Below are positions 8,988-57,969 of a stretch of 64,000 nucleotides of DNA, in pieces (within the stretch, counting starts at the first letter, position 1; each line of letters begins with the position of its first letter). The notes below the pieces were generated by a model. The model ran no database searches and was not told where the DNA came from. It saw nothing but the letters and a program-made list of their open reading frames with translations. A program made the translations under genes and the position numbers. The stretch comes from Erigeron canadensis (lineage: Eukaryota > Streptophyta > Magnoliopsida > Asterales > Asteraceae), in NCBI RefSeq assembly GCF_010389155.1, contig NC_057765.1, positions 8,928,001 through 8,992,000 of the forward strand. The letters run 5' to 3'.

Positions 8988-9185
8988 TTTCACTTAATTT
9001 CGTAATACCACGTTGGTTTACCTAGTTATTATATTTTACAAAAGTGCATTTACGCCATGCGCCAATTGTCGTACGACTTGCTCCCGATATTTTTGATGCT
9101 ATTTAGACACGGGTCAACAAATAGCATATAATTGTATACATAACCTTTGAAAATTACATGTACATGGATTGCCCTTGGCGAAATT

Positions 9186-9530
9186 TGTTGTACCATTAAT
9201 TAGCAAATAGTCTTAGTGTAGGATTATGTATGTAAATATATTAAATAAAGGGGTGTTTAGTGGTCATCCCCAAAGTGTCTAGCGGGTCAGGATGTTGGGC
9301 AGTTACTTAACTGACTCAAATACCTCTTGATGGATCGACATATCCATTCACTGGCACCAGTTCACATTGTATATATAGGGTTAATGTCTGTACAAAACAA
9401 AATATCCCATTCGTGTATTATATATCAGTTTATATATTCTCTGTCTCTCTTTCTCTATCGTTCTTATGGTTTACCAACACAACATCCATCTCATCAAGGG
9501 TATGAAAAACCCATAGATAAATTCTCTACA
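9186..9530 (+). repeat. 5' LTR of ARID element
   Basis: 345 bp, TG...CA ends. It contains a TATATATAGGG promoter-like box at 9370-9380 and is about 96.5% identical by eye to the 3' LTR. Confidence 0.93.
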
Positions 9531-9531
9531 T

Positions 9532-9543
9532 TGGTAGCAGAGC
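9532..9543 (+). other. Primer binding site (tRNA-iMet type)
   Basis: TGGTAGCAGAGC lies one base after the 5' LTR and differs at one position from the usual plant tRNA-iMet primer site TGGTATCAGAGC. Confidence 0.85.
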
Positions 9544-9740
9544 AATCGTTTCAATTATGGGAGAAATTCTGCAATTCGGGTTCCACAAAGATACCAACAA
9601 AGGGAATACAGGAAACCGTTTGCAATCAAAAGAAACAATGCGTTTAAGGGGGTGTTTGGAATTACAACATAGACAACATCCGGAACAGAATCGAAAGTCT
9701 GGAAATTGCACAAAGGCGCGACAGTTTCAAAAGGAAAAAT

Positions 9741-11618
9741 GTGGCAGGCAGAATTCCAAAGACTCGATGTTTCACTTGCAATAAACCGGGCCACACTTTT
9801 CGAAACTGTCAAAACAAAGGCATCAAGCACTCTCTCAAACCATTGTGGATTACTGAAGGGAACCGCTCGATTGGAAAAGTCACAGAATCCGCTGAACAAT
9901 CTAAACGAAAGGGTCGAGAGGAACAAACTTCAATCAAAGGTGGCTCGATGGTGATTGGCACAGATTCTGGAAATTGGGATCACATATGGTATGTAAACAA
10001 AACCTCTCCTAATCACGTTGCATCTACTATGAACGTTTTTGTGAAACACAAATCTGTTGAAACCGACATAGAAGGGAAAAAGTGCAACCAGATTATAGGA
10101 GAAGCCTTAGTTAGTACCATGGATCGAGATTTTGTGATACCATATGTCACCCACACTCCAAACTTAGGATTTAACATACTCAGCCTACCCCAATTAATAA
10201 AACAAGGCCTTGAAGTTGACTTCTCAGAGGGTAAATGTGTGTTAAAACCTATGTTTGATGAGGAAATCGATGACAACACTAGTAGTGAGACTAGGAACAA
10301 GAAGGAAGTCGATGTTGGTTCTACTCAGGAAAAGTTGGATGAGATGGAAGAAATTGTTGGGTTAGATATCATGAAAAGAATGATGGCAGAGTATGTAACT
10401 CTGAACTCTGACAAAATTGGTGAGACAAGCAACAAGGGTTCTTCTAGTGTTTGGGTTGGAGAAGACATGGTTGTCCCTAGTAATCTATTCAAAGTGAAGG
10501 AATTTCTAGATCAGATTCTTAACGGGAAATTTGCTGAAAATTTGAAAGATATGTACTCCACCAACTTTGAAAACATGGTAGCATGGTTTTACAAAGAATT
10601 CTTAGACCTCCCGCTTTCAAAGGAAATTCCACCGACTGTTAGGAACAACAAAATCAGTTTGATGGATCTTTTTAGAACTATAAACGACATGGGTGGGGCA
10701 GGAATAGTTTGTGTCAAAGGAAAATGGGAAGGACTCGCCATGAGAATGGGTTATCCAAAGGAATATGTTGTCGAAATCAAAGGGTGTTACTTGGAATACT
10801 TGCAACAATTGGATTTATATTACAATGTCGCAAGAAAACTATTGGAAGAAGCCGATAAGGATTGTGTTGTTTGGAAAGGAGTGAAGACCAAATTGGAAAC
10901 AAATACAATCCAAGGATTCAAGTTTTTCATGGGGATAATGAAGCACATGCCGACGACTATGAAATACAAAGAACTACTCAAAGGGAAAATAAACGACTTG
11001 GTTGGATGGTTTCACAAGATTTATATGGATTGTGTGTTTGAGGCACCATTGCCACCACATATCGGAAACACCAAAATATGTTTGTTTGATCTCTATATTT
11101 TGGTGGAGAACATGGGAGGAAGCAAAGTTGTAAGTGAAAATGAACAATGGAACGAGGTTGCTATGAGTTTTGGGCTACCAGCAGGTTTAAAGAACATAAT
11201 CCGAGGAATTCATGGATGGTACTTGGAGGTTATGGACTCGTACTACAGTTCAATCATGGAATCAACAGCACACCTTGAAGGCGGGGCTGGAAACGCAGGA
11301 ATGTGCACTGAAACTGTGGACTACATTGTTCTTGACGAAGACAATGGAAAACACATGATGGCTGGAAATTCAGAGTGCAAGGAAGGGAAGACCAAAACTG
11401 ATGGGAACTCCGCTGATAAGGAAGAAACTGATGTAAATCAGGAAGAAGGTTGCGCTTGTGACTATGTTAACGTTGTCTATGACAACGGGGAAAAACTTGT
11501 GATAACATTCGACGAGGAAGATGACAGCACCAAGGAAGATGATAGCGACGAGGAACCAAGCATTGTCGAGTACTACAATAGTGAGGAAGATGGCAGTGTT
11601 AGCTTGGACATGGAATGA
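9741..11618 (+). CDS. Zinc knuckle-tandem ARID retroelement protein
   Basis: 625 open codons. Residues 10-23 form a CX2CX4HX4C zinc knuckle (C10, C13, H18, C23), as in Copia Gag. Residues about 78-175 align in outline with the Copia protease region: WYV at the position of the active site and FNILSLPQLIKQG near its end. The catalytic Asp-Ser-Gly is replaced by Asn-Lys-Thr, so it should be inactive. Two ARID-like domains follow at about 276-360 and 418-502, sharing the pattern KISLMDLF...DMGG and KICLFDLY...NMGG and a YLE motif. The C-terminus (about 585-625) is strongly acidic. Frame opens after a stop at 9645-9647 and the first codon given is GTG; no ATG precedes the zinc knuckle in this frame. 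The true start may be the ATG at 9557 in another frame, via an intron or a one-base slip near the G run at 9649-9653. It ends 24 bp before the polypurine tract. The ARID assignment is by pattern recognition; DNA binding is inference. Confidence 0.75.
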   Translation: MAGRIPKTRCFTCNKPGHTFRNCQNKGIKHSLKPLWITEGNRSIGKVTESAEQSKRKGREEQTSIKGGSMVIGTDSGNWDHIWYVNKTSPNHVASTMNVFVKHKSVETDIEGKKCNQIIGEALVSTMDRDFVIPYVTHTPNLGFNILSLPQLIKQGLEVDFSEGKCVLKPMFDEEIDDNTSSETRNKKEVDVGSTQEKLDEMEEIVGLDIMKRMMAEYVTLNSDKIGETSNKGSSSVWVGEDMVVPSNLFKVKEFLDQILNGKFAENLKDMYSTNFENMVAWFYKEFLDLPLSKEIPPTVRNNKISLMDLFRTINDMGGAGIVCVKGKWEGLAMRMGYPKEYVVEIKGCYLEYLQQLDLYYNVARKLLEEADKDCVVWKGVKTKLETNTIQGFKFFMGIMKHMPTTMKYKELLKGKINDLVGWFHKIYMDCVFEAPLPPHIGNTKICLFDLYILVENMGGSKVVSENEQWNEVAMSFGLPAGLKNIIRGIHGWYLEVMDSYYSSIMESTAHLEGGAGNAGMCTETVDYIVLDEDNGKHMMAGNSECKEGKTKTDGNSADKEETDVNQEEGCACDYVNVVYDNGEKLVITFDEEDDSTKEDDSDEEPSIVEYYNSEEDGSVSLDME

Positions 11619-11641
11619 AGAACTAAAGACGATTTGTTATT

Positions 11642-11652
11642 AGAGGGGAGAA
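11642..11652 (+). other. Polypurine tract of ARID element
   Basis: AGAGGGGAGAA abuts the 3' LTR start and is an all-purine primer for plus-strand synthesis. Confidence 0.85.
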
Positions 11653-11997
11653 TGTTGTACCATTAATTAGCAGATAGTCTTAGTGTAGGATTATGTATGT
11701 AAATATATTAAATAAAGGGGTGTTTAGTGGTCATCCCCAAAGTGTCTAATGGATCAGGATGTTGGGCAGTTACTTAACCGACTCAAATACCTCTTGATGG
11801 ATCGACATATCCATTCACTGGCACCGGTTCACATTGTATATATAGGGTTAATGTCTGTACAAAACAAAATATCCCATTCGTGTATTATATATCAGTTTAT
11901 ATATTCTCTGTCTCTCTTTCTCTATCATTCTTATGGTTTACCAACACAACAACCGTCTCATCAAGGGTATGAGAAACTCACAGATAAATTCTCTACA
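11653..11997 (+). repeat. 3' LTR of ARID element
   Basis: 345 bp, same ends as the 5' LTR, followed directly by the AAATT target duplication at 11998-12002. Confidence 0.93.
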
Positions 11998-12220
11998 AAA
12001 TTGTCCAATAGCTGGCGGCCAACCAATATACATGAGGTGATTAAGGATATCCAATGATCATGATCGATAGCTTCTTACGATTTACCGATTTGACAAGCTT
12101 ACTTTGCTCCTACTGGTTCTAGTAAATTCTTAATGAATTAGAATTGTTCAAATGTAGCTACCAAGCTAGTGTAAAATAATGATTGGCAAGAATTTATAAA
12201 GGTGTATCATCTAATACACA

Positions 12221-20763: not shown

Positions 20764-27293
<6,530 letters not shown>

Positions 27294-28776: not shown

Positions 28777-30781
28777 TGTAACACCCCACCCTTCTAAACT
28801 CGAATATGGGTGTTATTTTCAACTTAAACAATAATAAAGGAGTTCTAACAAATTTTCTCTTAATATTTCTTTACAATTCCATAGCGTAAACTTGTGACTG
28901 AGCCAATTGCTCAATGTGTGAATATAGGAATACATATAATAATATCAAATTAAAACAAAAATCATTTAACATATACAAAGACTTAAAAGTTATTTTAACG
29001 AATCAAAGACATTTTAAATAGATAATATTAATCCGAAACAAATATACTCATATCATCAAATCCACATTTTAGTATTATCAAAAGAACCTTTCAATAACCA
29101 ACATTATCAAAAAGCCGTAAAAGCTTTCTACTTTCAAATCCAACATTAACAGAATACTTATATTTCAGGTTTTCATATTTTCAAAGCCAACCGAGCTCCT
29201 ACAACAAAAACGCATACATTTGCTTATCGAATCGATAAAACAAATGTCAGATATTTGTACATTGGACTGCAGATCCAAATGTACCCTACAAATGTGCAAT
29301 GGTGTGTCGGGCACAACACAACCACCCACCTTACAAATCCGACAAATCCTACAGTTCCTAGAGTCGACTCATACGCCTCCTACACAAAAATGGCCAATGC
29401 TCGTATAGAGCTCCTACAAGCGGAGAGGCCGTGAACGCATCACACCGTCACGGTGGTGTCACACCATCGGTGCCCCAAATGATGTGCCTATGGTACCCCC
29501 ATAGGTGGTTAGCTCGGGTTTTCATATCAAATTCTCATATATCAAAATAACTTTGTAAATAATCTTTCAAAATTCTTATCGTACAATGTTCCAAAAACTT
29601 TCTCATATTCAAAGATCTTTTGTACATATATTTCAAAAATCAAATTTATTTAAAACCTTTAGATCATAACTAACATATAGCATATACGAACAAAATAGTT
29701 TTAAGGCCTTAAAAGACATATTAAAATCACTTTAACAACAGAGTAACGCAGAAGGAACAAATGAAATTCAAATCATACTTTCGACATATATGTAAACGTA
29801 TAAGTTTAAAATAGAAATCCGTACAATTATATAAAACATAGTTTAAAATAGGAATCCGTAACATATATATAATAAAGAGAGTTCAAAACCAGAATCCGTA
29901 CCTCGAACAAATGTTTAAACCTCCTAAATTCGGATGCACAACAGTCCTCAACGAAATCTACATTGCGTTATTAAACTATATATCAACTACTGTCAAAATG
30001 TAACACTCATTCCGCGATTTCCGGACCATATCTATGTTCGTTGATTAACCATTTGTGTCATTTATAATAAAGCTTCCACCATGATTTATATAAAGTATGT
30101 CTTTAGTTTACACAAAAACTTATGATACTTAACTGATGACTTATAATAAAAAGTATGTCATTTATAATAAAGCTTCCGGACCATATATTTTTATAAGAAT
30201 GATTCGAAAGTTCCCAATATATTCATGGAATCATGGCTATTCCTATATAATACAGATTTCATAACTCGTTATTAATATCGATTAAACCAACAACTGAAAA
30301 GGGTTATTTGCCATAATTTTACAATAGTCCAGTATAGCAAGCTCACTCAAAATTGTTTTAACTAATGTAGTTGAAATAAAAAGGACTGTGAATTTAGACT
30401 TAAAAACAATTTAAAAGTATGTCATGCATGGATGTAAAAATACTTCAAGGCTAAAGTAAAAGTTATTTATTTGAGTCCATGCATTGTTTCGCTCGTACGT
30501 TTTCACGACCAACTTTCAAATTCTCTGTTTCATCAAAAGCTTATTTTTTTTTTATAAATCATCTTCTTCGTCATTGCATCTAACGACCGTGACTACCGTC
30601 CGCCTCTTTAAGATGTATTTTATGTATATAAGTGCTATTTGGATGATTTGTTACTATACCTAGTTGGATAGAATGCACGACACGTAATATGATTTGCATG
30701 ACGATTTAATATGAAGGAATTGAATAATCCATGAGTCGTGTTTATAAAGGAGTTGTAAAAGCCCGAATATCTCAAACTCTA
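28777..30781 (+). mobile_element. LTR-like segment, target of the chromovirus
   Basis: It begins TGTAACACCCCACCC, an LTR-type start. It contains degenerate direct repeats around AATCCGTA (29814, 29853 and 29893) and a duplicated CATTTATAATAAAGCTTCC (30059, 30158). It has no coding content. Its end was not found; the chromovirus at 30782 inserted at its right. The call as an old LTR is inference from the terminus. Confidence 0.3.
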
Positions 30782-31151
30782 TGATGCGGACCATTCCTCT
30801 ATTAGCCCAGTACCAGTCCAGCCCAGTGTTCGGCCCAAGAGACAGATTACTAAACCGGCCCGTTTTCAGACCTGAAGTTTATTTGCTATTTTGTTTAGTT
30901 ATCTTTCAATAGTCGTTTACTTAGTCTTGCATTGTTTACCCAGTCTTGCATGATTTCCTTGTTTCTAGCATAGTGGATGCATGTTAGTAGTAGTGGCATA
31001 GAATAAGGGTCATGGGTGGTTAATCCATTGAACTCCTGCATGTTTAAATTTCGGTTTTGCATTATGAGAATATACAGAAAATTGTCCCAAAAATGTTCTC
31101 TCTTTTCTCTCTAGTGCTTGGAGCCTAATCCCCTCTAAGGATTATCTATCA
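30782..31151 (+). repeat. 5' LTR of chromovirus
   Basis: 370 bp, TGATGCGG...CTATCA, appears identical to the 3' LTR. Confidence 0.96.
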
Positions 31152-31167
31152 TTGGTGCTTTCATTCA
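31152..31167 (+). other. Candidate primer binding site of chromovirus
   Basis: TTGGTGCTTTCATTCA directly follows the 5' LTR. Its tRNA partner was not identified. Confidence 0.6.
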
Positions 31168-31183
31168 CGAACCAACCAACACC

Positions 31184-34100
31184 ATGCCACCTCGTCGTGA
31201 CCCCTCAGATGATCAACAAACCACCACAAATGACCTATTGCAACAGCTCATTGCCTCTACAACGGCTGCGGCAGCACAACAGGCTACCCAATTCCAAACA
31301 CTCATTGACGACACCCGTACCCTTCACACCAAACTCGACCAACAGGCCTCTGTTTTGACAGCCATATCGGAAAAATTCACTACCAATCAACCAACCAGCC
31401 CACCCGCAAAGATTGTTCAATCCCCTAACCATTCCCACGCATCTTCCTCCTCATCACACACTCAACCCCGTACTCCGAAGATCACATTACCACTTTTTGA
31501 TGGATCGAACCCTTTAGGGTGGATCTTTCAGGCTGAAAACTTCTTCACCTACTATCAAACCCCGCCTAATGAACGCGTTCCATTGGCAGTCTTCTATTTC
31601 ATTGGTGACGCGTTAGCATGGTACCAAAATTTAGCCAATAACGACCTCCTACCTTCATGGACAGCCTTCAAGCGTGAAGTTGAACGTCGTTTCGGACCCT
31701 CCGCATTTGAAGATCATGAAGCCGCCCTTTTCAAGCTGACACAAACGTCTACGGTTTCAGCATACCTCACTGAATTCGAAAAAATCAGTAACCGGGTCAC
31801 GGGCCTCAATCAACAAGCTTTGAGAAGTTGTTTCATTTCGGGTCTTAAAGCAGATATTCGCAATGAATTATCCGTGTTACGACCGCATACTTTGTATGAA
31901 GCTATTGGTTTAGCCAAGGTAGTGGAAGATAAAGTTTCACAAAATTCCAAACCTAGAAATCTATTTTACACCAGGTCAAATACCATAACTAACCCTCCTA
32001 CAACCACGTTAAACAACCCTCCTAATTCTACTCCAGCATTACTTCCAACACCAAACAAACAACCACAACCCCTACCTTTTACCAAACTATCAGCAGAAGC
32101 ACTCCAACAAAGAAGAACAGCCGGGCTATGCTTCAAATGTCCGGAGAAATACTTTCCGGGTCACAAGTGCTCACCACCCCAATTTCTCCTCATTGTCGAT
32201 AACGACGATCGTGACGACAATGAAACTGCCAACCCACAACCTGAAAACACAATTATCACCGAAAACATTGTTCCTCAAATGCTATCTTTGTCTGATGCAG
32301 CTTACTTTGGTCTCTCGTCCCCACAAACGCTAAGAGCCACCGGGTATATTAAAGGCCATCCAGTCACCATCCTCATCGATTGTGGAAGCACTTACAACAT
32401 TGTCAAACTCCGAGTTGCAAACACTCTTCACTTAGACATCAATTCCATTCCCCAATTTGACGTTATGGTTGGAAATGGTGCCTTCATTCAATGTCAAGGT
32501 TTCTGTCCATCCGTTGATTGTCAAGTACAAAAGGCTGCGTTCTCCATTCCTGTTTATGTTTTACCAGTGGAAGGTGCTGATGTGGTTTTAGGCATCACTT
32601 GGCTGGCATCTCTGGGTCGCCTCTCCGCGGACTTTTCGATACCAGAAATTTCTTTCACTAAAGATGGCCAAAACCATACAATCCGGGGAGAAACATTGGG
32701 ACGTCCTTGTTCACCTAGTTCACTCTCAACACTTCTCCGTCATGACTCCATTGCATCTCTCCATACTTTGACATGTTCCCCCACACAACCTGTTACAACT
32801 ACTAATTCCTCCACACCACCACCTTCAGACCCTGTCATTCACCAGTTTCTACAACAATTTTCCAAGCTTTTTGATGAACCACACTCGCTACCACCCAACC
32901 GCACACATGACCACCACATTCCCCTATCTAACAACAATCAACCCATCAATGTTAAACCTTACCGTTATCCACATTACCAAAAGCAGATAATGTCCCAACT
33001 CATCACTGAAATGTTACAAAATGGCATTATTAGACCCAGCCAGAGTCCATTCTCTTCGCCGGTGCTGTTAGTAAAAAAGAAAGATGGTTCATGGCGTTTT
33101 TGTGTCGATTATAGAGCATTAAACGCGGTTACGGTTCGAGATCGTTTTCCTATTCCAACGATTGACGAATTATTAGACGAACTTCATGGTGCTACAATCT
33201 TTTCAAAAATCGACTTACGCTCCGGGTACCATCAAATACGGGTTTCACATGAAGATATTCATAAAACCGCCTTTCGCACCACCGATGGGCATTATGAATT
33301 TCTTGTCATGCCGTTTGGGCTCACAAACGCTCCCTCGACGTTTCAATCAGCCATGAACGATTTGTTTCGAAAGGTATTACGTCAATTTGTCTTGGTTTTC
33401 TTTGATGACATCTTGATATATAGTTCCAACCAAGCTGATCATTATGAGCATCTTAAGTTTGTCTTCACTACTCTTATTCACAATCAGTATCATGCCAAGG
33501 GATCCAAATGTGTTTTTGGGGTTCACGAGATATCATTCTTAGGTCATAGAATTTCAAGTGTTGGGGTTGCCCCGGAACCGGATAAAATTCAGGCCATACA
33601 ACAGTGGCCAATGCCTTCGTCTTTCACTACTTTACGAGCCTTTTTGGGTCTAACCGGTTATTATCGTCGTTTTGTCCCTGGTTATGCTCGCATTGCTTCT
33701 CCGCTGACTGATCTTTTGAAACACAAAGAATTCACGTGGAATTCTGAAGCTACCTTAGCCTTTAATTCTCTCAAATCCCATATGAAAACACTCATCACCT
33801 TAGCCTTACCAAATTTTTCAAACCCTTTCGATGTTACAACAGATGCTTCAGGTTTTGCTATAGGTGCGGTCCTATCTCAAAACAATAAACCCATTTCATT
33901 TTTCAGCAAAAAGCTTTGTCCTACAATGCAATCCCAATCAACATATACCAAAGAGCTTTATGCTATAACCGAATCAGTGAAAAAGTGGAGACAATACCTT
34001 TTGGGCAGCCGTTTTCGAATTTATACTGATCACCACAGCTTAAAACACATTCTCACACAAACCATTCAAACTCCTGAACAGCAGAAATGGGTTACTAAGT

Positions 34101-34507
34101 TGATGGGATATGACTTCGAAATTCACTTTAAACCGGGTAAGGAAAATAATGTGGCAGACGCTCTTAGCCGACTTGATATTCCATCAATTTTGGCTTTTTC
34201 ATATCCAACAGCAACCTGGTTAAATGAAATTCGATCTTATTTTGTTAATGATGATGTGGGTCGCCAACTGATACAAGATATCCAGGCTGATTCTGCGAGT
34301 TTTCCACATCATCGGGTTCGTGATGGTCTTGTTTATATTCATGGAAAGCTTTTGGTACCACCAGTTGCGGACATTCGACATCGTTTGTTACATGAATTTC
34401 ACTCTTCTTTCACTGGTGGCCATGCTGGTATTAATTCAACAATCAAAAGGCTTTCTGGCAGTTTCACTTGGTTGGGGTTAAAAAAAAGATGTTACCGACT
34501 TTGTTAA
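31184..34507 (+). CDS. Chromovirus Gag-protease-RT-RNase H
   Basis: Starts at ATG 17 bp after the primer site. Gag covers residues 1 to about 310, with the retrotransposon-gag core WYQNLANN...FKREVERRFG. The zinc knuckle CFKCPEKYFPGHKC is at 316-329. Protease has its catalytic Asp at 399, as D-C-G-S-T where D-S-G is usual. Reverse transcriptase carries FCVDYRALN and the FFDD active site (Asp741, Asp742). RNase H has TDAS near 887 and YTDHHSLKHIL. The integrase zinc-binding His pair begins near the end, and the frame then fails: eight A residues at 34480-34487, where seven would keep frame, give a stop at 34505-34507. This is one polyprotein in origin. Confidence 0.93.
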   Translation: MPPRRDPSDDQQTTTNDLLQQLIASTTAAAAQQATQFQTLIDDTRTLHTKLDQQASVLTAISEKFTTNQPTSPPAKIVQSPNHSHASSSSSHTQPRTPKITLPLFDGSNPLGWIFQAENFFTYYQTPPNERVPLAVFYFIGDALAWYQNLANNDLLPSWTAFKREVERRFGPSAFEDHEAALFKLTQTSTVSAYLTEFEKISNRVTGLNQQALRSCFISGLKADIRNELSVLRPHTLYEAIGLAKVVEDKVSQNSKPRNLFYTRSNTITNPPTTTLNNPPNSTPALLPTPNKQPQPLPFTKLSAEALQQRRTAGLCFKCPEKYFPGHKCSPPQFLLIVDNDDRDDNETANPQPENTIITENIVPQMLSLSDAAYFGLSSPQTLRATGYIKGHPVTILIDCGSTYNIVKLRVANTLHLDINSIPQFDVMVGNGAFIQCQGFCPSVDCQVQKAAFSIPVYVLPVEGADVVLGITWLASLGRLSADFSIPEISFTKDGQNHTIRGETLGRPCSPSSLSTLLRHDSIASLHTLTCSPTQPVTTTNSSTPPPSDPVIHQFLQQFSKLFDEPHSLPPNRTHDHHIPLSNNNQPINVKPYRYPHYQKQIMSQLITEMLQNGIIRPSQSPFSSPVLLVKKKDGSWRFCVDYRALNAVTVRDRFPIPTIDELLDELHGATIFSKIDLRSGYHQIRVSHEDIHKTAFRTTDGHYEFLVMPFGLTNAPSTFQSAMNDLFRKVLRQFVLVFFDDILIYSSNQADHYEHLKFVFTTLIHNQYHAKGSKCVFGVHEISFLGHRISSVGVAPEPDKIQAIQQWPMPSSFTTLRAFLGLTGYYRRFVPGYARIASPLTDLLKHKEFTWNSEATLAFNSLKSHMKTLITLALPNFSNPFDVTTDASGFAIGAVLSQNNKPISFFSKKLCPTMQSQSTYTKELYAITESVKKWRQYLLGSRFRIYTDHHSLKHILTQTIQTPEQQKWVTKLMGYDFEIHFKPGKENNVADALSRLDIPSILAFSYPTATWLNEIRSYFVNDDVGRQLIQDIQADSASFPHHRVRDGLVYIHGKLLVPPVADIRHRLLHEFHSSFTGGHAGINSTIKRLSGSFTWLGLKKRCYRLC

Positions 34508-35759
34508 GTCTTGTGCAGTTTGCCAAAGCATTAAAACGCCTAACCATAAACCGTATGGTTTGCTTCAGCCTTTACCGACTCCGGAACATCAGTGGCATGA
34601 TATATCCATGGATTTTATTACCAATCTTCCACCATCGAAAGGGAAAACGGCTATATGGGTTATTGTTGATCGTCTATCTAAGTTTGCCCATTTTATTGCG
34701 CTTCCAGCAGGGTACACTTCTTTTTCTTTAGCTTCTATTTTCATGCGTGAGGTGTATCGTCTTCATGGGTTGCCAAAGTCTATCGTTTCTGATCGAGATC
34801 GTGTTTTCATTAGTGGTTTTTGGAAGGAGTTATTCAAGCTTATGGGTACTCAATTATTACACTCCAGTGCTTACCATCCGGAAACAGATGGACAGACTGA
34901 AGTGGTAAATCGGGGCCTCGAAATGTATCTGCGGGCATTTGTTTTCAATCAACCAAAGAAGTGGGAACGATATCTGTACTTGGCTGAATTCTCATATAAT
35001 ACAGCTCATCATTCGGCTATTAAAATGTCCCCATTTAAAGCTTTATATGGCAGAGATGTTTCTTCAATTCATGAGTATATCCCAGGTGAAACAAAAACAG
35101 CTTCGATTGAGACTTCTCTTCTGGAACATCAACGTATCATTGAGCAGCTCAAAGTTTCAATTGAAGCTGCTAAAGAAAAGATGGTCAAGTATGCTAACAA
35201 GAAAAGGTTAGATAAAGAGTTCAACGTTGATGATTATGTGTATTTACGACTTCAAAATTATCGTCAGTCATCAGTTGCAAGTCGCTCAAGTCACAAACTG
35301 TCAAGGCGTTTTTATGGACCTTACAAGATTCTGGAACGTATTGGCAAAGTGGCGTACAGATTGGAATTGCCTCAAAAGTCTCGCATACATCCGGTGTTTC
35401 ATGTTTCTTTGCTTAAGCAATGCCACGGAAACAACTTAAGTGACAAAGGTGATTTAGACCAATTTGGCCCTGAAATTGAAGTTAGTCCTTTGCCAGAATC
35501 TATTTTGGATGTCCGCGTAGATAACAAAGGTAAAACTCAGCTGTTAATTAAATGGGAGAAGAAGTCTATTGAAGAAGCAACGTGGGAGGACAAAGAGGAG
35601 TTGGAAGGAATGTTTCCAAATTTCTCTAGCATTGCGGACAATGAAGTTTCTCAAGAGGAGGGGGATGATGCGGACCATTCCTCTATTAGCCCAGTACCAG
35701 TCCAGCCCAGTGTTCGGCCCAAGAGACAGATTACTAAACCGGCCCGTTTTCAGACCTGA
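34488..35759 (+). pseudogene. Chromovirus integrase and chromodomain, shifted frame
   Basis: Continues the polyprotein in the next frame after the A-run. The Cys pair (CAVC) of the integrase zinc-binding domain comes first. The catalytic core follows with MDF, SDRD and an Asp-35-Glu spacing ending in TDGQTE, so the DDE triad is intact. The C-terminus has HPVFHVSLLK and a chromodomain-like LLIKWEKKSIEEATWE segment. The frame ends at 35759, 94 bp inside the 3' LTR. Because it lacks its own natural start, it can only be expressed as part of the polyprotein; as read it is disconnected by the frameshift. Confidence 0.85.
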
Positions 35760-36035
35760 AGTTTATTTGCTATTTTGTTTAGTTATCTTTCAATAGTCGT
35801 TTACTTAGTCTTGCATTGTTTACCCAGTCTTGCATGATTTCCTTGTTTCTAGCATAGTGGATGCATGTTAGTAGTAGTGGCATAGAATAAGGGTCATGGG
35901 TGGTTAATCCATTGAACTCCTGCATGTTTAAATTTCGGTTTTGCATTATGAGAATATACAGAAAATTGTCCCAAAAATGTTCTCTCTTTTCTCTCTAGTG
36001 CTTGGAGCCTAATCCCCTCTAAGGATTATCTATCA
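35666..36035 (+). repeat. 3' LTR of chromovirus
   Basis: 370 bp, preceded by the polypurine tract and overlapped by the last 94 bp of the integrase frame. Confidence 0.96.
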
Positions 36036-56039: not shown

Positions 56040-57969
56040 TCAGTAGCACCACACTGCCACATACGTTGAACACTGCCACTCTGGCGAAGCGTAACATCTA
56101 TCAGTGAAGTCTGAATTTTCAAATGTACAGAAGTACCCCACTTCATAATTCGAAAGCCGGGCATTAACATTCTGAAATAAACAAGAAACGACGCACTTCA
56201 TAATTGAAGTAGTTGCATAATGCAATAACTTAAGGATAGTCTAATTTACCTTGTCCACCAATATAACAGCAGTCTTAAACTGTTTATACGACAATCGCTT
56301 TCTCCGATGCAAGAAAGACAGGTGTGCGGCCCCTATAGCTATCTTCAACCGGGCAACCCAAGAAAGAGGAGAGGTTCGTATCTCTGCATATACGCTAATT
56401 TAATGATTTAAGTTCTGAAAACCAACCAGCTTACATGTGGAGTAGAATGACTTCTCAGCAGAGTTAAAAGAAAAAAAATATTATTACCTCTAAAAAGAAG
56501 TTTGTCTAAACCAGCATCTGGATTTAGCTCATAGACGAGATATATACGATTACCAACACTTTGATGATATCCCAACAGGTTGACAAGATTCTGATTAATG
56601 AACTCTTCTACTTTGAAATCTACCTGCAGGTGATAGATGTCAAGTAAACTACAGTATAATATAATGAAAATTAAACATCAATATTGTACGAGGTTCATAC
56701 ATCTAGTTCCACATGATCGGTTTTAAATAGATATACCGTGTCTGATTGCAAGTACCTCCCATTCTCTGGTCCATGCCATCTTAACATAAATCTCCAAACC
56801 ATCACCACTTTCTTCTGGGGCATATGTATTTTCATGGACCCATCCTTTGTAAATGGTTTCAAGCAATGATCTGGAATACTCTTTGTGCTGTAAATTGTTT
56901 GTTGCCTTTTTCAATTCAGCATACATGAAATTTCTTGGACTTCTGTTGTTAAATATCCTAATACCTTTCTATGAAAATGGAGCTGCCACCATGTTAGGTT
57001 TGCCTGTGTGAAAAACTCTTACCTTGTCAATTAATCCTCCTTCACCTTTCTTTGTTTTGACATAATCGACTCAAGCTTGACCACAACCTCAGACATCGTT
57101 GGACGGATTTTTGGTTGATTATGTAAACACTGTCCTGCTATGCTTATAAAATCTTTCGAGCATCTTTTTGAGATCTGTCCCACCAGCCTAGAATCGATAA
57201 GTTGGCTTAGTTTTCCTTTTTTAATTTTATCTTGAGCCCAAACTGCTAAACTCCATTGCTCTTCATCCAGGGTTGGATCGACGGCTTTCTTCCCGCACAG
57301 AACCTCAAACAGTACAACACCAAAAGCATAAACATCAGATTTTCTTGTCAGTTTACCGCTATTGGAATAACATGGATCCATATACCCAAATGTCCCTTTG
57401 AGTCCAGTGCTCACGAAAGTTCTTGTCTGATTTATTGGGCCAACTTTAGCCAATCCAAAGTCTGCAATTTTCGCATCAAAGTTTGCATCCAACAAAATAT
57501 TGGAGGTCTTCACATCACGATGTATGACCCCATATCGAGTTGCTGTACCTGTGTGGAGGTAATCTAATCCACGAGCCGCGCCTATACAAATCTTTAGTCT
57601 TTGTAACCAAGATATATCTGTACGGTTGTCTTTGTGGAGATGATCATCAAGGGTTCCATTAGGCATAAATTCATAAGCCAGAATCATCTCTTCACCTTCG
57701 TTGCAATAACCAATGAGCGGCACTAGATTACCATGTCGCAGCTTAGAAAGTACCTCAACTTCAGCTTCAAATTCACCGGCTCCTTGGCTGGACTTGGAAT
57801 CCAACCGCTTGATTGCAATTTCACTTGCCAACCCGATCTCCTTGCTACGACATCTATATACCTTCCCGAATCCCCCATAGCCAATAACTAATGTGTCATG
57901 GAAATTTTCAGTTGCAACTTTAATCTCAGCAAAGGTAAAACGTCTACAAGTTTGCTCTGGTAACATCAT
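56040..57969 (-). CDS. CrRLK1L-like kinase with fused pseudokinase
   Basis: The first exon (57969 downward) encodes a complete Ser/Thr kinase like the cytoplasmic part of FERONIA-type receptor kinases, without signal peptide, ectodomain or membrane span. GYGGFG loop at 30-35, Lys54, HRD 150-152, DFG 170-172 and GYMDP are all intact. Read alone it stops at 57031-57033 (312 aa). A donor AAG^GTGAAG (exon end 57046) and acceptor at 56968 instead join it in phase to FMYAELKKATNNLQ and further exons 56968-56756, 56623-56488, 56383-56250 and 56171-56040. These encode a PBL-like second kinase domain in which the glycine loop is gone, HRD reads YKQ and DFG reads NYE, so it should be inactive. The joined model is 512 aa, ending early at WCY after the SPEW motif. 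Kinase domain certain; fusion is inference needing transcript data. Confidence 0.75.

Follow-up and report, generated by a model that had tools for sequence, protein, structure and literature searches.

A long terminal repeat retrotransposon unit of Erigeron canadensis, and the probable non-autonomous family in which an ARID protein has been kept

A stretch of 64,000 nucleotides from Erigeron canadensis (RefSeq assembly GCF_010389155.1, contig NC_057765.1, positions 8,928,001 to 8,992,000), hereafter the window, carries at positions 9186-11997 a retrotransposition unit bounded by two long terminal repeats (LTRs). Its single open frame encodes a protein with two ARID domains and no polymerase. 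A sequence-only reading had described the LTRs of equal length, the exact AAATT target-site duplication (TSD), the primer-binding site, the polypurine tract and this polymerase-free frame, and all of them were found again here. The genome in which relatives were sought is a 426-Mb assembly, where the window corresponds to C5:8928001-8992000. The unit is likely to be one member of an old family of non-autonomous LTR elements. Its features are the following.

9181..9185, strand not applicable: 5' target-site duplication AAATT, direct from the sequence
9186..9530, + strand: 5' LTR, 345 bp, TGTTG...CTACA, from LTR comparison
9532..9543, + strand: primer-binding site TGGTAGCAGAGC, from the sequence
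9741..11618, + strand: open frame of 625 codons with GTG at its opening, start codon uncertain, from open reading frame analysis
9768..9812, + strand: CCHC zinc knuckle CX2CX4HX4C, motif intact, Pfam zf-CCHC 17.6 bits, under the cut-off of 20.8
9987..10208, + strand: Copia protease-like domain (Pol_BBD), catalytic D-S-G absent (WYVNKTSPNHV), Pfam 21.6 bits, under the cut-off of 27
10614..10808, + strand: ARID domain 1, Pfam ARID 1.7e-9, 38.4 bits
11052..11231, + strand: ARID domain 2, Pfam ARID 2.5e-10, 41.0 bits
11256..11615, + strand: acidic C-terminal tail without known domain, from the Pfam scan
11642..11652, + strand: polypurine tract directly 5' of the 3' LTR, from the sequence
11653..11997, + strand: 3' LTR, 345 bp, from LTR comparison
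11998..12002, strand not applicable: 3' target-site duplication AAATT, direct from the sequence

The two LTRs align without gaps over 345 bp and differ at 12 sites (11 transitions and one transversion), which gives a Kimura two-parameter (K2P) distance of 0.036. With substitution rates of 1.3e-8 to 8e-9, the insertion is about 1.4 to 2.2 million years old. The primer-binding site, which we take to be of the initiator-Met tRNA type, shows one mismatch with that of the sister element L007 (TGGTATCAGAGC). Paired LTRs, TSD, primer site and polypurine tract are thus all present in 9186-11997. The frame stays open from 9741 to 11618, as had been noted, but its start codon is uncertain, since the first 70 residues contain no in-frame ATG and the frame is closed upstream by a stop codon.

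Both ARID domains individually exceed the curated Pfam cut-off of 24.1 bits, and the whole protein matches the ARID profile with an E-value of 6.5e-20. The matches cover residues ~292-356 and 438-498, inside the ranges 276-360 and 418-502 proposed earlier; in a comparison with sequences of solved structures, the same residues lead to the ARID proteins SWI1, ARID2 and JARID1B. An AlphaFold2 model of residues 248-510 alone was of no use, its mean predicted local distance difference test score (pLDDT) of 38.9 being too low. For the zinc knuckle, the motif is intact, but the profile score in the window copy is below the cut-off. The protease-like domain exceeds its own cut-off in L007 (29.8 bits vs. 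27). Reverse transcriptase, integrase, RNase H and capsid families are absent from the frame in the Pfam scan (up to an E-value of 10 for capsid), and the NCBIfam scan of the protein returned no family.

In the acidic tails, SUMO-interaction-like motifs were considered and rejected: they are absent in 6 of 10 tails, at least 5% of shuffles reach the motif in 3 of 10, and 2.6% do so in one of 10. By eye, a short motif resembling LFDDGE..hITh recurs in the tails of the window element, L038, L040, L044, L045 and L046, that is, in lineages A, B and C defined below.

The window element has relatives across the genome. The protein search gave 45 matches, and 70 of 345 candidates were scored; counts of loci are therefore lower bounds. 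Among the stronger protein matches, at least 12 further loci carry an ARID piece of this kind (L007 and L038 to L048, the last one weak and degraded). Paired LTRs surround eight of them (L007, L038, L039, L040, L041, L043, L046, L047), and single LTR remnants accompany three more (L044 and L045 with lineage C remnants, L042 with a lineage A match); at the degraded L048, no LTR was found. Degraded pieces of the protein also occur at L049 and on contig C286 (L032), the latter closely resembling L048. Including the window, nine two-LTR elements are available, with K2P distances between LTRs of 0.017 to 0.054. A perfect 5-bp TSD flanks six of them (window, L007, L038, L039, L040, L043), L041 has four matching bases out of five, and the TSD search found none for L046 and L047. 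Searching with the window LTR itself returned the element's two LTRs, a pair on C5 at ~75% and a 95% solo LTR on C9 (L006) having its own perfect 5-bp TSD, TCATT. Hence, five of the eight two-LTR relatives and one solo LTR bear target duplications of their own. The weaker protein matches are of other kinds: L051 to L053 are Copia elements with LTR pairs, a reverse transcriptase motif and a protease motif, and L050 is a presumed host ARID gene without LTR pair and without knuckle or protease-like match.

None of the nine two-LTR elements encodes a recognisable polymerase or integrase. Indeed, when 18 open stretches of three Copias were compared with the nine internal regions, the Copia pieces matched only the knuckle and protease-like part in eight elements and had no match in L043; integrase, reverse transcriptase and RNase H were not recognised in any, whereas the polymerase of the Copia adjoining L044, used as a positive control, was matched at 3e-103. 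The polyprotein that defines Copia elements (protease, integrase, reverse transcriptase and RNase H) is therefore missing from all nine. As judged from sequence, their Copia kinship is carried by the protease-like domain and the primer site. Even the protease-like domain has lost its catalytic motif. The site reads W-[FIY]-[LV]-D-S-G-[CA]-S-N-H-M in all four Copias read (L051, L052, L053 and the one adjoining L044), whereas D-S-G is replaced in all nine readable ARID elements (the window, L007, L038, L039, L040, L041, L043, L046 and L047) by NKTSP, SKNSP, SDEYP, SKTHT, SQLHT, NKTIT or NHTIK. The surrounding Y and H are kept in 9/9 and W in 8/9; L044 and L045 begin past the motif and are outside this count. 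The window thus has WYVNKTSPNHV where a Copia has WFLDSGCSNHM, without the D-S/T-G of an active retropepsin. In L047 (L047:4065-8031), the internal region measures ~4 kb, and some 2 kb between ARID and tail match no Copia piece.

The elements fall into four lineages. Lineages A (window, L007) and B (L038, L040, L046) have two ARIDs each, lineage C (L039, L043, L044, L045) has one, and lineage D (L041, L047) has one as well, followed in L041 by a second knuckle. This second knuckle, CYRCQNLGHYAYEC, lies 3' of the ARID (L041:5099-5785) and is not seen in lineages A, B and C. The LTRs of lineage C (L039, L043) start with TA, not TG, despite their perfect 5-bp TSDs. Two loci are composite. L042 (C2:23596600-23606500) is a rearranged nest, in which the lineage A LTR match is accompanied by two damaged pieces of ARID elements that point in opposite directions. 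At L044 (C3:9542400-9552300), a Copia with reverse transcriptase and RNase H directly precedes the ARID piece. Since the missing N-terminal part is weakly matched upstream, at C3:9540681, an ARID element may have been the insertion target of this Copia.

A Pfam search of the genome gave 26 ARID matches, 14 inside these elements and 12 elsewhere. A tree built from 15 ARIDs of the elements and four presumed host ARIDs (L050, L054, L055 and L056, with L054 on a long branch) splits the two sets at 99/99; it leaves out two short pieces (L049 and the L040 second ARID) as well as the ARIDs of L042 and L048, which are damaged. The elements and the presumed host genes thus have the ARID fold in common and belong to separate clades. 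Within the tree, A and B come together by their second ARIDs at 82/75 and by their first ones at 64/49, so that the tandem pair is likely to come from one duplication preceding the A/B split.

Between lineages, the LTRs are mostly too distant for BLAST. Nevertheless, against dinucleotide shuffles, 32 of 37 between-lineage LTR pairs have z > 3, as compared with 0 of 30 pairs formed by an ARID-element LTR and an LTR of one of the three Copias. With plain shuffles, z > 4 is found in 32/37 and 1/30 pairs, respectively. By eye, a CCGGTT block 5' of TATATA is common to lineages A, B and C. Because of this kinship and of the common block, LTR and ARID cargo seem to have a common history across lineages; because the LTRs are related, what was inherited seems to be the whole unit and not just the gene.

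The sequence-only reading had seen a hint of selection in the 625 codons remaining open at about 12 LTR differences. That argument does not hold: in neutral simulations at the LTR divergence (substitutions only, without indels), the window frame stays stop-free in 0.30-0.43 of runs, so the open frame is no evidence of selection. The evidence lies between elements. Over 500 codons, the window and L007 show a proportion of nonsynonymous differences (pN) of 0.329 for a proportion of synonymous differences (pS) of 0.746, and 45% identity is preserved across residues 76-433 despite a near-saturated synonymous distance. For L038 and L040, pN is 0.268 and pS 0.740; for L038 and L046, the nonsynonymous to synonymous rate ratio, omega, is 0.26 (0.18-0.35). 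Since synonymous distances are near saturation, codon models were fitted; the omega ranges that follow are the two values printed by the program. They give ~0.12-0.14 for ARID1 (8 rows; log-likelihood -1670.1 vs. -1740.7 at omega 1, 70.6 log units worse), 0.10-0.13 for ARID2 (4 rows; -984.3 vs. -1011.6, 27.3 worse) and 0.11-0.14 for Pol_BBD (7 rows; -2011.1 vs. -2084.3, 73.2 worse). By these models, neutrality is rejected: the protein was under purifying selection between lineages while retrotransposition multiplied the unit. The comparison of nonsynonymous and synonymous change proposed earlier thus yields ratios far below 1 between lineages (omega ~0.1).

Paired LTRs, missing enzymes, a clade of element ARIDs, LTR kinship and an omega of ~0.1 together lead to the interpretation that we regard as likely: the window holds a member of an old, low-copy, non-autonomous LTR retrotransposon family that keeps a captured DNA-binding protein acting in cis and receives its enzymes in trans. 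The existence of the family and its conservation are very probable. The earlier proposal that a Copia-type element captured an ARID is only partly retained: the protease-like domain and the tRNA-type primer site speak for it, but the ARIDs are carried as part of a fusion protein, together with a knuckle derived from Copia and a protease-like domain devoid of catalytic motif. The idea of a recent single capture is abandoned, as the window is one member of an old family with several lineages.

The integrase, reverse transcriptase and RNase H activities would be supplied by full Copia elements. The ARID protein would most likely act on the copy encoding it, because a non-autonomous element profits only if its own protein helps that copy. 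In such a scheme, the zinc knuckle might retain the RNA of its own element, and the protease-like fold might dock onto the particle of the helper. The ARIDs might bind double-stranded DNA and so either anchor the cDNA on chromatin or sit on the AT-rich LTR of the element itself. This division of labour is tentative, although a role as a cis-acting nucleic-acid tether is probable for the protein as a whole. It is also conceivable, with a little more in its favour, that the elements form a distinct non-autonomous type, whose ancestor would have given up capsid and polymerase and taken in an ARID in their place; the fusion of RNA- and DNA-binding parts would then give a cis preference over other non-autonomous elements parasitising the Copia machinery.

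Several observations weigh against the interpretation of a kept cis-acting protein. Most copies are broken: a frame nearly spanning the internal region exists only in the window and in L039 (520 codons), and the window copy itself lacks an early in-frame ATG. A helper with kin LTRs was not found among the at least 34 matches of four LTR searches; in these, one same-strand LTR pair alone is spaced like that of a Copia, and it belongs to the ARID element L047. LTR kinship between B and C is weak (z > 3 in 3/6 pairs with dinucleotide shuffles), and one of three Copia-Copia pairs is likewise above z 3. The host side of the ARID tree covers just four of the 12 non-element matches, and L054 to L056 measure only 221-311 bases, so that the remaining content of these genes is not visible. 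Synonymous distances in the deep pairs are saturated or almost so, and omega is less low in close pairs (0.45 (0.18-1.74), 0.61 (0.46-0.84), 0.46 (0.32-0.65) and 0.47 (0.27-0.90)). Such values fit constrained replication followed by neutral decay after insertion, but may also be expected under relaxed selection. Finally, no insertion preference for AT-rich DNA was seen at seven sites, whose flanks have a GC content of 0.21-0.47 (0.34 for the window). This weighs mildly against the ARIDs choosing the targets; a nuclear tether or a promoter binder would still fit.

Broken copies, close-pair omegas of 0.45-0.61 and an open window frame consistent with neutrality would also suit a functionless passenger protein, whose frames only seem conserved owing to recent insertion. 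This is very improbable, because window and L007 retain their 45% identity at a near-saturated synonymous distance and because each domain loses 27 to 73 log units when omega is set to 1, so that the codon models already disfavour it. Alternatively, the constraint could originate in a domesticated knuckle-ARID host family repeatedly captured by LTR elements. Plant LTR elements commonly capture host genes (PMC3726574, PMC13317346), and L048 has no LTR; however, L048 is degraded, 11 of the 12 further loci have paired or single LTR evidence, LTRs are kin across lineages and the four sampled host ARIDs fall outside the element ARIDs. This origin, too, is improbable.

A better, though still rather unlikely, candidate is a self-regulator: the protein would bind the AT-rich LTR promoter and activate or un-silence its own family, much as VANC proteins do for the VANDAL DNA transposons. 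ARIDs are DNA-binding domains, the LTRs of A, B and C have the CCGGTT-then-TATA block near the likely promoter (by eye), the same lineages are recovered from LTRs and from ARIDs, and a cis benefit is explained without any role in the particle. The constraint on Pol_BBD (omega ~0.11-0.14), as strong as that on the ARIDs, is nevertheless left unexplained.

The retention of a cis-acting ARID protein can be set beside several known systems. TRIM and LARD elements are defined by having no coding capacity, unlike the window unit with its 625-codon frame and conserved domains. TR-GAG elements, as described in PMC8704663, are LTR retrotransposons of a non-autonomous kind whose only frame is GAG; one of them is reported there to have transposed in Arabidopsis ddm1. 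The window element resembles them in being LTR-bounded, without polymerase and with one Gag-derived protein retained; it differs in that no capsid is found in its frame (E-value up to 10) and that knuckle and protease-like fold are fused to captured ARIDs, so that it is no TR-GAG in the sense of that text. Bs1 of maize is an LTR element with transduced pieces of host genes (PMC13317346), and host-gene capture by LTR elements is known from rice and sorghum surveys (PMC13317346, PMC3726574). Bs1 and the ARID elements both have host-derived coding sequence inside an LTR element, but the ARID elements keep one captured domain through at least four diverged lineages under purifying selection. Like chromoviruses (Ty3/Gypsy), they place a chromatin or DNA reader domain within a retrotransposon protein; unlike them, they encode neither an integrase, to which chromoviruses fuse their chromodomain, nor a polymerase of their own.

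No description of ARID cargo in LTR elements was found in the titles and abstracts returned by searches of an open-access library, and the word "ARID" does not occur in the consulted passages of PMC13317346 or PMC3726574. Host-gene capture (Bs1) and LTR elements that are non-autonomous yet coding (TR-GAG) are already known (PMC13317346, PMC3726574, PMC8704663).

The family bears on how non-autonomous retrotransposons are understood and annotated. Such elements are usually thought to need cis signals only, their enzymes arriving in trans. A sole protein conserved at an omega near 0.1 across lineages suggests a cis payoff for the encoding element. The question of how a parasite of a parasite profits from having a gene at all thereby becomes testable. 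Beyond the chromodomain, the family brings a further DNA-binding domain into the set of readers that retrotransposons have recruited. For annotation, it provides a clearly delimited unit. Proteins named as ARID DNA-binding domain-containing exist in the daisy family, and the 14 of 26 genome ARID matches that lie inside these elements could otherwise pass for transcription factors.

Elsewhere in the window, a Ty3/Gypsy chromovirus occupies positions 30781-35964. Two frames make up its coding region, with integrase and chromodomain in the second, and a 300-nt LTR stretch is identical between both copies; it is probably a young insertion. The frames at 21811-22686 and 57031-57969, with a FAD-binding domain and a protein kinase domain, are probably pieces of host genes.
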